This document shows positions 1,590-6,760 of a stretch of DNA of 64,000 nucleotides, piece after piece. Location of the stretch: contig NZ_RAVZ01000004.1 in the NCBI RefSeq assembly GCF_003611635.1, forward strand, positions 1 through 64,000. Direction: 5' to 3'. The notes beneath the pieces were generated by a model. The model ran no database searches, had not been told where the DNA came from, and was given only the letters and a program-made list of their open reading frames with translations. The stretch is from Corallococcus terminator (GTDB taxonomy: Bacteria; Myxococcota; Myxococcia; Myxococcales; Myxococcaceae). Position 1 is the first letter of the stretch. Each line of letters starts with the position of its first letter. Made by a program: the position numbers and the translations under genes.

Positions 1590-2987
1590 TCAGCTTCCGA
1601 TTTCGACGTTCTCCAGGACACCCAGCGCGTCGGGGACCAGGAGGGCGGCGGAGTAGTACGTGCTCACCAGGTACTCGCTGATGGCCTTCTCGTTGATGTC
1701 CATGCGGCGCACGGAGATGCCCGGCTCCACTTCGTCCGGGAGCTTTCCGGGGTGCAGGCCGATGACGCCCTGATCATCCGCTCCGGTGCGCAGCACGAGG
1801 ATGGAGCTCGTGAGCGTGTTGGAGATGGGGATCTTGTCGCACGGCAGGATGGGCACGCCGCGCCACCCCATCATCTTGCTGCCAGCCACATCCACCACCG
1901 TCGGGTAGATGCCCCGGCGATTGCACTCCCGGCCGAAGGCCGCGATGGTGCGCGGGTGGGCCAGGAAGAAGCGTGACTTGCGACGGCGCGACAGCAGCTC
2001 GTCCATGTCATCCGGCGTCGGCGGCCCGCTCCGGGTGTTGATGCGCTGCTTCAGGTCCGCGTTGTGCAGCAGGCCGAACTCAGGGTTGTTGATGAGCTCG
2101 TGCTCCTTGCGCTCCTTCAACGCCTCCAGGGTCAGCCGAAGCTGCTCGGCCGTCTGGTTCATCGGGTCGTTGTAGAGGTCCGCCACGCGGGTGTGCACGC
2201 GGAGGATGGTCTGCGCCAGGCTCAGCTCGTACTCGCGGGGCTTGAGCTCGTAGTCCACGAACCCGCCCGCCAGCGTGGGCTCGCCGTGGTGGCCGGCGTT
2301 GAGCGGGATGGCGGCCTGCCCTGACTTGTCCTGGGGCTTCTTCAGGTTCGCCTTGTACTGGGCCACGTGGGCGCTCAGCGCGGGGGCGTTCTTGATGAGG
2401 TCCTCGAACACCTGCTGCGGCAGCGCCATCACGGTGCAGGCGGTGTTCGCCTTCACCGTGAAGGGCCAGACGTCGTTGGACTCCACCACGGCCGAATCGC
2501 CGAAGTGGTCGCCGTCCGCGAGCGTGTCCAGGACGACGGGGTCGCCGAACTTGCCCGTGCCCAGCTTCGTCGCCTTGCCGTGCGCGATGAGGAACACGTG
2601 CTCGGCGGGCTGGCCCGCCTCCACGATGGAATCACCGGCCTTGTACTGCTTCTGCACGAAACGGCTCGCGAGCGCCCGGACCGTCAGGCCTTCCTCGTCC
2701 GCGTCGAACCCGCGCAGCAGCGGCAGCTTGAGCAGCTCCTGGGGGATGACCTCCACCTTGGTACCGACGTTGGTGAAGTTCAGCCGGTCGTCGCCCACGG
2801 AGTACGTGAGGCGCCGGTTGACGCGGAACACGCCGTTCGTCGCCACCCAGGGCAGCATGCGCAGCAGCCACCGCGGGGAGATGCCCTGCATCTGCGGCTG
2901 GGACTTGGTCGTCGTCGCCAGCTGGCGTGCACCGGCCGTACTGAGGCTGGAGTGCTCGGTGCCGCCGTTGTTGATGGGATTCGCCAT
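1590..2987 (-). CDS. Family 2B encapsulin shell protein (with cyclic-nucleotide-binding-like domain), copy 1
   Basis: This 465-residue protein has the Family 2B encapsulin layout. A flexible N-terminal arm (1-45) is followed by a cNMP-binding-like beta-roll (~85-205, with [21 protein letters not shown] and [10 protein letters not shown] tracts). The HK97-type shell domain (~230-465) carries the conserved [13 protein letters not shown] and [12 protein letters not shown] segments and ends in ENVEIGS. In the beta-roll the Arg that normally contacts the cyclic phosphate is replaced ([10 protein letters not shown]), so classical cNMP binding is doubtful. Family 2B shells form closed protein compartments around metabolic enzymes, and terpene cyclases are a known cargo class. 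The ATG at 2987 has GGAG upstream. It is the last gene of an operon, 34 nt after the second shell gene, with geosmin synthase as the likely cargo. Confidence 0.9.
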
Positions 2988-3021
2988 GAAGAGAGCTCCG
3001 GAAGTGCGTGGGGGCCTGGGA

Positions 3022-4416: not shown

Positions 4417-4486
4417 GGGTCACCTTTCCCTAGGTTGAAAAGACAGAAGTTGAAGAAATCAAAGCCTGTTCACTGCGAAGACAGAA

Positions 4487-6760
4487 TCAGGGGCGCTCGC
4501 GCTTGAACAACTCCGCGACCTTCATCGCGGACGTGCCCAGCGCGCCAAGACTGCCGAGGTTGCCGGTCTTGAACTTGGGAATCGCGGCGTCTCGCAATTC
4601 GAATTCCTTGTAGCGGTCCACCGCCGCGTGCCACATCGGGATGCCCGCCATCCACTGCTGGAGCTGCTCCACGTACTTGTGCAGCTTCTCCTGCCCGTCC
4701 GTGTCCAGGTCGAAGGAGCGGATGACGACCGGGATCTCCTTGGCGACCAGGTGCTCGAACTGCTTCATCCGGGCGGTCATCAGGTGGTTCAGGACGAGGA
4801 CGGCCTCGTCCTTGTCCACGCCCAGGAACTTCTGGACCACGAGCACGCCGTTGTTGAGCTCACCCTCGAACTCAATCTCCTTCTGGTAGGAGAAGATGTC
4901 GTTGACGAAGCAGGCGTAGTCGGCGGCCGAGTTCTCCAGCGCGCGCATCGTGCGCGTCTTGAAGACAGCCTCCGGGATGGCGTCGCCCTTGGACAGGCGC
5001 GACAGGCTCATGGTGAGGTCGGAGCCGAACGTCTTGCGACGCATCTCCACGTAGTCCACCGGGTCCGGCACGCGGTTCAGGATCTGGTTGTTCAACTCCC
5101 AAACCCAGCTCTCCGTCATGTCCTGGATGGCCTTGCGGAACAGCTTGCGGCCGTAGGCGGAGAGCGGGCCGGCCGTGCGCTTCCACAGGTCCGCCAGACC
5201 GATTTCCACGGGGTTGGTGGGCACCGCGGCGTTCACGGCCTCCACGTCATCCGGCATGAACTGCGTGAGGCGTGCGTTGAACAGCTTCGCGCCCGGCATG
5301 TCGCGCGTGTAGCTGTAGAGCGCGGGGAAGTAGTCGTCCGCGTAGGTGCCCCACACCAGCCAGCACGCCGTCAGGTCCAGTTGTTCGGGGAGCGCGTCCG
5401 GGTGGATGAGCGCGCCGCAGAGGGCCACGTCCGCGACGTCGAACTTGTGGTCGTCCCAGATGTAGAGCCCCACGCCGGGCAGTTCGTCCAGCATGCCCAT
5501 CCGGCGCGCCCAGTCCTTGGAGTTGCGCCGCGCGCGCTCCAGGTGGGGGCTCAGGTACGTGCTGTAGGGCATGTAGAACTTCGGCAGCTTCACCGGGCCC
5601 ACGTGCTGGCGGGGGACGTGGCTGAAGCTGCGGGCGCGAGGCCCCAGGCCCAGCGCGCCGGCCGTCAGCGGCAGCTTGATGGCGGACATGCCCAGGCCGC
5701 TGGGCAGCGGGATGGACAGCTCCCGGTTCTCCCGGCCGGCGGTCTGGTTCATGTAGCGGTTGGAGCGCATGTGCCACTCGTGGCCGCCGGACTGCCAGTC
5801 CTGGAGGCCGCGCAGGTACAGCATGACCTGCGCCTGCTCCGCCGGGTTCAGGCCGTACTCCGCGAAGAGCCAGGGCAGCTCCGTCGCGGCGGTGTTCTCG
5901 AACTGCTGGAGCCGGGACGTCAGCAGGTCGTTGACCAGGTCCGCGGCGCGCTGCGTGTCGCACTCGAGGAACTTCTCCACCACGAGCACGCCGTTGGAGA
6001 GTTCGCCCTCCTCCAGGATTTCGCGCTCGTAGGAGAACAGGTCGTTGCGCAGGTGGACGGCGTCGGAGAACGTGTCCTTGAAGACGCGCATCGGGCGGCT
6101 CTGGACGACGCGGGCCGGGATCTCCGCGACGGCATGCTCCACCAGGTCCGACGACCACGGAGCGCCACCGACCTTGCGGCGCATCTCGATGTATTCGATG
6201 GGATTGGAGACGCGCGCCTCGCTGATGTTCTCGATTTCCCACATCGATTCATCGAGCAGGTGCTTGGTGTTCTCGTAGAAGCGGCGGCGCCACTCCATGG
6301 ACATGGAGGGCACGGTGCGCTGCCACAGGTTCCACAGGCCACGCTCCACCGCGTTGGTGGGCTCCGGCGGCGTTTGCGCCAGGTCCAGCGGCATGAACAG
6401 CGGCAGCCGGTCCAGGTACGCCTGACCGCCCTGGATGTCGCGCGAGTACTTGTAGACCTCCAGGAAGTGGTCGTCGAAGTAGAAGACCCAGACGTACCAG
6501 TCGGTGATCAGGTCCAGTTCGATGCTCGGCGCTTCCGGGTGCGTGTACGCGCAGAGCAGCGCGTAATCCATGCCGTCGAAGCGACGCTCGCTCCAGACTT
6601 CCCGCTGCGTCCCGTCGTTCGCGGGGCCCAGGATGCCCATCTCGTACGACCACGCCTTGGTGTGGACGCGGGCCGCTTCGAGGTGGGGGTTCAGGCGCGC
6701 GGGCCAGGGAACGTAGAAATCGGGCAGCTCGAACGGCTGCTTGTGACGCGCCTTGGACAT
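4487..6760 (-). CDS. geoA: Geosmin synthase (two-domain germacradienol/geosmin terpene cyclase)
   Basis: This 757-residue bifunctional sesquiterpene cyclase is of the usual geosmin-synthase length. The N-terminal domain converts farnesyl diphosphate to germacradienol; it shows the Mg-binding DDHFLE motif (96-101) and NDLFSYERE (239-247). The C-terminal domain converts germacradienol to geosmin with loss of acetone; it has the family's variant DDYFP (475-479) and NDIFSYQKE (620-628). The inter-domain linker and the extreme C-terminus carry similar short segments (GLGMSAIKL at 355-363, ALGTSAMKV at 740-748), flexible and rich in Gly/Ala. It is the first gene of an operon with two encapsulin shell genes. 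The ATG at 6760 has GAGGGG upstream. Cytoplasmic; likely sits inside the shell (inference). Confidence 0.95.

Follow-up and report, generated by a model that had tools for sequence, protein, structure and literature searches.

The three-gene locus

Is geosmin made inside a protein shell, and if so, why should that shell be built from two different proteins? Geosmin is among the most widespread of bacterial odours. Both questions are raised by a locus in Corallococcus terminator (contig NZ_RAVZ01000004.1, positions 1 to 64,000; this stretch of 64,000 nucleotides is called the window below), in which a geosmin synthase (GS) gene is followed by two genes for Family 2B encapsulin shell proteins, Enc1 and Enc2. 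We consider it likely that the products of these three genes form a Family 2B encapsulin in which geosmin is made, with GS enclosed in a mixed Enc1/Enc2 shell. Such an arrangement is already known; the three-gene order, the assignment of GS as cargo and the two-subunit shell have all been published, so the original prediction of encapsulated geosmin synthesis cannot be claimed as new. What the survey adds is a co-occurrence without exception in the genome samples and a rule for the two subunit types; with these, the role of the second shell protein becomes testable. The genes and the catalytic motifs of GS are:

4487..6760, reverse strand: GS with two terpene cyclase domains, the predicted cargo, 757 aa (NF041168, PF19086)
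3022..4416, reverse strand: first shell, a Family 2B shell protein of the Enc1 type, 464 aa (NF041163)
1590..2987, reverse strand: second shell, a Family 2B shell protein of the Enc2 type, 465 aa (NF041163)
6458..6475, reverse strand: aspartate motif DDHFLE of the GS N-terminal domain, residues 96-101
6020..6046, reverse strand: NSE motif NDLFSYERE of the GS N-terminal domain, residues 239-247
5324..5338, reverse strand: aspartate motif DDYFP of the GS C-terminal domain, residues 475-479
4877..4903, reverse strand: NSE motif NDIFSYQKE of the GS C-terminal domain, residues 620-628

Coordinates and family models agree with what had first been described here, a complete two-domain GS and then two Family 2B shell genes, with gaps of 70 nt (GS to first shell) and 34 nt (first to second shell); two-component Family 2B encapsulins are recognized by two shell genes within 10 kb. 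GS scores 1210.1 bits against NF041168 ('family 2 encapsulin cargo protein terpene cyclase'), just above the curated cut-off of 1200, and holds two Terpene_syn_C_2 (PF19086) stretches, while its N-terminal domain matches the solved germacradienol/geosmin synthase structures 5dz2 and 5dw7. All four metal-binding motifs are intact, an aspartate and an NSE motif in each domain, as in a bifunctional geosmin synthase, and from its family membership the enzyme would make geosmin from farnesyl diphosphate. Against NF041163 ('family 2B encapsulin shell protein', cut-off 400), Enc1 scores 773 bits and Enc2 735 bits. Both carry PF00027, the cyclic-nucleotide-monophosphate-like (cNMP-like) domain, ahead of PF19307 (HK97-type, SrpI family), which is the domain make-up of Family 2B. 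The source genome has exactly two Family 2B genes, the remaining model matches being weak and limited to the cNMP-like part.

Conservation and co-occurrence

The order of the three genes is strongly conserved. We searched 144 Myxococcota genomes related to the source for GS and Family 2B shells; full-length GS was found in 52, and the identical 52 hold Family 2B shells (52/52). This count omits one genome, G060, whose sole GS-type match is a single domain (1.9e-21), as well as nine genomes whose shell-model matches span only the last half (Family 2A size); in G003, where GS is divided between two contigs, only the half adjoining the shells was counted. GS occupies 56 places in the 52 genomes, and at 52 of these it is followed by two shells on the same strand. 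One of the other four reaches a contig end after the first shell, and the remaining three are extra, shell-less copies, all in genomes with a complete triad. The order in Myxococcota is not due to chance, and the expectation that it would be conserved among myxobacteria is borne out, with cyanobacteria showing it too. A Microcoleus metagenome-assembled genome has a variant of the locus (L089, 4702-9271), in which tandem GS-like genes stand before two shells, the first being a divergent paralogue with altered motifs.

Three further samples, of one order and two phyla, were searched with cut-offs of 1e-150 (GS) and 1e-130 (shells). In the order sample, 147 genomes around a Streptomyces genome, GS is present in 141 and all 141 also have a shell; the four shell-less genomes are all GS-less, and two (G513, G571) have shells but no GS. 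In the 217 genomes of the actinobacterial phylum sample, GS occurs in 11 and shells in the identical 11 (11/11), eight of which overlap the Streptomyces-order sample. The cyanobacterial sample (292 genomes, the phylum around a Lyngbya genome) holds eight genomes with GS, each with shells (8/8), and three more (G620, G810, G843) with shells and without GS. A GS-bearing genome lacking a Family 2B shell was thus found in none of the four samples. Because related genomes are not independent and shells are nearly universal in the Streptomyces order, most weight is placed on the phylum samples and on Myxococcota.

Physical linkage is a separate matter. Among 80 named GS loci, a shell lies within 7 kb in 52, and none lies that near in 28, one of which is a Hyalangium. 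The original prediction named a cyclase unlinked from its shells as grounds for abandoning it, and taken literally such loci exist in actinobacteria (the 28 of 80), yet all 27 of their searched genomes hold a shell elsewhere; the 28th locus, L085, shares its assembly with the linked triad L083.

The candidate targeting motif

How might GS enter a shell? A candidate targeting motif with the consensus GPTGLGTSAAR has been published (PMC8346489; this paper, PMC7251104, PMC12407261 and PMC12766979 are all cited here from excerpts of their text). GS of the window has it in degenerate form at both of the places where cargo cyclases carry it:

5675..5704, reverse strand: linker copy of the candidate shell-targeting motif, between the two cyclase domains, residues 353-362
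4520..4549, reverse strand: second copy of the candidate motif at the GS C-terminus, residues 738-747

Across 10 aligned GS proteins, G355, L356, G357 and S359 are invariant in the linker copy, and G742, S744 and A745 in the C-terminal copy. By regular expression, the motif is found in linker or tail of 160 of 164 distinct GS proteins and in both places in 125, and the four negatives include variants recognized by eye (L232, L233 and L089). The extra, unlinked Myxococcota copies L068 and L069 have the consensus form of both motifs. The third extra copy, L070 (G063:C1:10885553-10887733), is shell-less and divergent with GPGTSAAR in both places; its second aspartate motif is altered (DDFFFS), and it may make another terpene. 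Sixteen Streptomyces-order GS proteins (L219-L234) have a short tail without the C-terminal motif, most of them keeping a linker variant. As a marker of linkage the motif was rejected, since unlinked GS proteins also carry it and their searched genomes all have shells.

The motif also occurs in a second terpene cyclase. Three loci of Pseudonocardiales (L107, L110, L111) combine GS, a cyclase of the 2-methylisoborneol (2-MIB) type, a geranyl diphosphate methyltransferase-like gene and two Family 2B shells, and could possibly be dual-odorant compartments. The 2-MIB-type synthase of L107 and L110 shares the GPTGLGTSAARI motif and is encoded between GS and the second shell (Enc2). L111 has a related cyclase with GPSGFGTSAVRL; its gene is found some 0.3 kb upstream of the first shell, on the opposite strand. 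NCBIfam supports all three of the proteins that were run (the L110 synthase and the L110 and L111 methyltransferases).

A resemblance was also seen between the cargo motif GLGTSAARI and the N-arm of the shell itself, SLGTAAARQ (Enc1 residues 13-27, window 4336-4380). When 799 non-GS proteins of the window and 82 loci, the window's own shells not being among those scored, were ranked by a cargo-tail profile, 12 of the 50 best-ranked were shells; with the core of the profile 17 were, against about four expected (65 of the 799 are shells). Mimicry of the cargo motif was rejected as an explanation, as typical shells score far below true cargo, with a median rank of 153-279. It is further weakened by the fact that shells form one family and that the idea arose post hoc from the sequences, and it is kept as a weak lead.

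The chief alternative to an encapsulated GS is that the shell holds other cargo or acts as a stand-alone regulator or store, GS being merely co-transcribed or co-inherited with it. A role of this kind has traditionally been ascribed to 'cnb' or EshA proteins, which were annotated as Crp/Fnr-type regulators (PMC7251104), and the five genomes with shells but no GS would fit it. Several points weigh against encapsulation more generally. Linkage is often missing in actinobacteria; in the Streptomyces order, where 143 of 147 genomes have shells, GS is found with a shell at close to the base rate; and the co-presence of two genes does not prove contact between their products. Many Streptomyces GS proteins have lost the C-terminal motif copy, and the motif offers no contrast between linked and unlinked GS, being carried by both. 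The enzymes of 2-MIB synthesis function without shells, 2-MIB being produced in E. coli with mtf and mtc alone, and in a 2-MIB cyanobacterium the cnb genes are transcribed separately from those of the enzymes (PMC10580876). Our literature search on encapsulin and geosmin (synthase) found no experiment on GS packaging among the papers that it covered. Against a role apart from GS stand the lack of any shell-less GS genome in the four samples, those with unlinked genes included, the conservation of a repeated motif within an otherwise variable linker and tail, and the presence of the GS motif in the second terpene cyclase of the same loci. On balance we regard this alternative as unlikely, and packaging of GS as the better account.

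Two types of shell subunit

Why, then, are there two shell genes? The window pair carries the diagnostic residues of a two-component Family 2B encapsulin, TVWK in Enc1 and RRRK in Enc2. The relevant features are:

3415..3426, reverse strand: Enc1 diagnostic motif 1, TVWK, residues 331-334 (motif defined in PMC12407261)
3304..3330, reverse strand: Enc1 motif 2 loop, VDFNGNMIP, residues 363-371 (facing the lumen in the Streptomyces lydicus structure, PMC12407261)
3826..4089, reverse strand: Enc1 cNMP-like domain inserted in the E-loop, residues 110-197 (PF00027)
1977..1988, reverse strand: Enc2 diagnostic motif 1, RRRK, residues 334-337
1869..1895, reverse strand: Enc2 motif 2 loop, VDVAGSKMM, residues 365-373
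2388..2651, reverse strand: Enc2 cNMP-like domain, residues 113-200 (PF00027)

We aligned 283 distinct shell proteins to the window Enc1 and assigned one-letter variants of motif 1 to the nearest class. This gave 112 VWK, 81 RRRK and 90 RRR[GSND] proteins. Among 97 stretches with two shells, which include some loci fetched repeatedly, 93 pair VWK with RRRK and four pair VWK with RRR[GSD], one of the latter (L338) probably containing two unrelated systems. The same type twice was never seen. Single shells follow a different rule: of the 53 single-shell genomes in the Streptomyces-order sample, all 43 examined have RRR[GSND].

Exceptions to the lone-shell pattern are few. L340 and L341, from cyanobacteria, have RVWK at motif 1 and form a distant clade in the shell tree; they are apparently lone shells of the cysteine-desulfurase type, and by eye a downstream open reading frame resembles a cysteine desulfurase cargo in its long disordered start. 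In Nonomuraea (L076), TVWK stands alone in its stretch, and the record contains a second shell match of unlocated position. The remaining VWK shells seen singly come from stretches that end at the fetch limit or a contig end.

Motif 2 adds a second distinction. Its final residue is P in 86 of 90 shells of the lone type and P or T in 109 of 112 VWK shells, and it is P in only 7 of 81 RRRK shells. From these counts, an Enc1-like loop goes together with an RRR motif 1 in lone shells, and in pairs the two features are split between the subunits.

These results bear on whether there is one mixed shell at all. The anticipated shell of two non-identical subunits is supported by the TVWK and RRRK motifs, which match the S. 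lydicus pair shown to co-assemble into mixed shells (PMC12407261). The opposing possibility is two separate homogeneous shells, or two shells of which only one is loaded with GS; PMC8346489, with genomes only, was unable to exclude this, and the window pair is well diverged. It is nevertheless improbable, as the closest studied pair co-assembles, with S. lydicus Enc2 self-assembling and Enc1 forming no shells alone (PMC12407261), and as none of the 97 two-shell stretches has two subunits of one type. Furthermore, VWK without an RRR-type partner occurs in no checkable genome, the two lone cysteine-desulfurase-like shells aside, and the repeated gene conversion of shared HK97 parts described below suggests one interacting assembly.

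Divergence and probable gene conversion between the subunits

It had also been proposed that the subunits differ mainly in their cNMP-like domains. The window Enc1 and Enc2 are 64% identical, and at 52% the cNMP-like domain is indeed where they are least similar, though divergence is nearly as great in the C-terminal HK97 part (59%) and the N-terminal part (63%). Differences between Enc1 and Enc2 that are conserved across lineages lie in the A-domain. The emphasis on the cNMP-like domain is misleading in another respect, as a metagenome-assembled Nostoc (L100) has a pair with identical cNMP-like domains that still differs in TVWK/RRRK and in the loops. Both cNMP-like domains of the window show GD in place of the GE that we take to mark the phosphate-binding cassette, and the matching arginine was not found in the sequence. 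That the subunits differ so that two cNMP-like domains can sense two ligands, the A-domain motifs being secondary, would fit the two-signal sensing proposed in PMC12407261 and the low similarity of this domain in most pairs, but is unlikely given the Nostoc pair, the altered cassette and the finding that a tested Family 2B cNMP-like domain binds no cyclic nucleotide (PMC12407261).

A division of the two types into ancient clades was considered and rejected. In a tree of 84 representative shells, based on the HK97 part only and built without the motif columns or the cNMP-like domain, Enc1 and Enc2 do not form separate groups; it needs 14 VWK changes, at least seven of them forced by the starred branches. 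Grouping 23 VWK rows as one was rejected (p-AU 0.0001, with three divergent VWK rows dropped). In Myxococcota the two shell types do form separate groups, and in several lineages both shell genes of a locus are sisters. Because of conversion, a repeated origin of VWK cannot be distinguished from a single origin that was later overwritten.

Conversion-like tracts are seen at codon level. Runs of at least 30 identical codons occur in 11 of 87 distinct shell pairs (a few loci being counted twice), namely in two Nostoc, three Planotetraspora, one Actinomadura and five Streptomyces or Streptomyces-order genomes. In nine of the 11, synonymous-identical codons are commoner before motif 1 than in the segment from motif 1 to motif 2 (p<0.01). 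The clearest case is L167, where they number 102 of 104 before the segment, 11 of 22 within it and 80 of 82 after it. No tract was found in the window pair, whose longest run of identical codons is 11. As the motif segment is less alike than its flanks, it would be older than they are, as expected if conversion had recurred and versions that erased the motifs had been lost.

A model for the compartment

In the model that we favour, GS would enter the shell through its linker and C-terminal copies of the GLGxSA motif, docking on the inner face. A single mixed shell would be built from Enc1 and Enc2. Enc2, with RRRK, would be the subunit capable of closing the shell; Enc1, with TVWK, would depend on Enc2 and supply a structured N-arm and a luminal loop as in lone shells, and would probably make the contact with cargo. 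Farnesyl diphosphate would pass the shell pores, both GS domains would make geosmin inside, and the product would exit. Since related cyclases are active without shells, catalysis cannot be what the shell is for; its role may be one such as retention, timing, or protection from a reactive or lipophilic product.

A broader idea can be offered more tentatively, and we hold it to be somewhat less probable than its opposite: two-subunit terpene encapsulins may represent a division of labour kept by selection against gene conversion, with GS as an obligate client that is served in trans where the genes are unlinked. The lone shell would then combine an RRR[GSND] assembly motif with a luminal loop ending in P. 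The RRRK subunit would retain assembly and drop the P-ending loop, and the VWK subunit would retain a loop ending in P or T, probably the cargo dock, and drop autonomous assembly. The cNMP-like domain would be optional to the difference between Enc1 and Enc2. If every GS is indeed an encapsulin client, earthy volatiles are as a rule made by encapsulated terpene cyclases, and terpene encapsulation is more than a curiosity of 2-MIB. The rule for paired and lone shells, together with tracts that spare the motifs, turns the question of why there are two shell proteins into a specific and testable one.

Surroundings of the locus

A scan for promoters and terminators over 1300-7000 found nothing exceeding shuffles. 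A gene for a DJ-1/PfpI family protein (6914-7675, forward strand) diverges from GS at a distance of 153 nt. Further away, 10414-11007 on the reverse strand encodes a repetitive Lys/Arg/Ala-rich protein that looks histone H1-like by eye.

Comparison with known systems

Among named relatives, C. praedator CA031B is the closest found, with 98% identity over GS. Encapsulins have been noted in all myxobacterial geosmin clusters (PMC12766979), a source whose excerpts contain no subunit typing or genome-wide co-occurrence. Likewise, a comparison with lone shells was not found in the excerpts of PMC12407261, and a literature search on encapsulin and gene conversion returned, judged by title, only a giant-virus topic.

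The geoA-cnb-cnb cluster, published for cyanobacteria and Deltaproteobacteria (PMC7251104), resembles the window in having GS followed by two genes for cNMP-binding proteins, and the cnb proteins (471 and 469 aa) are close in length to the window shells (464 and 465 aa). It comes from species other than that of the window, and both cnb genes are labelled there as Crp/Fnr-type regulators, not as shells. The two-component encapsulin of S. lydicus is, like that of the window, a Family 2B pair with TVWK and RRRK motifs (PMC12407261). Solved chains highly similar to the window shells exist, the closest to Enc1 being 9bje (668 bits); judging from their motifs, we assign 9bje and 9bix to the S. lydicus system. 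No native cargo is known for that system, which is of the xylulose kinase type, whereas the neighbour of the window shells is a terpene cyclase (PMC12407261). Closest of all are the terpene cyclase operons of PMC8346489, where GS-like cyclases were already put forward as putative cargo. These have a two-domain GS-like cyclase with a GPTGLGTSAAR-type motif repeated in linker and C-terminus, often together with two shells; as far as the excerpts of that paper go, the window does not differ from them in any essential respect and is a member of the group.

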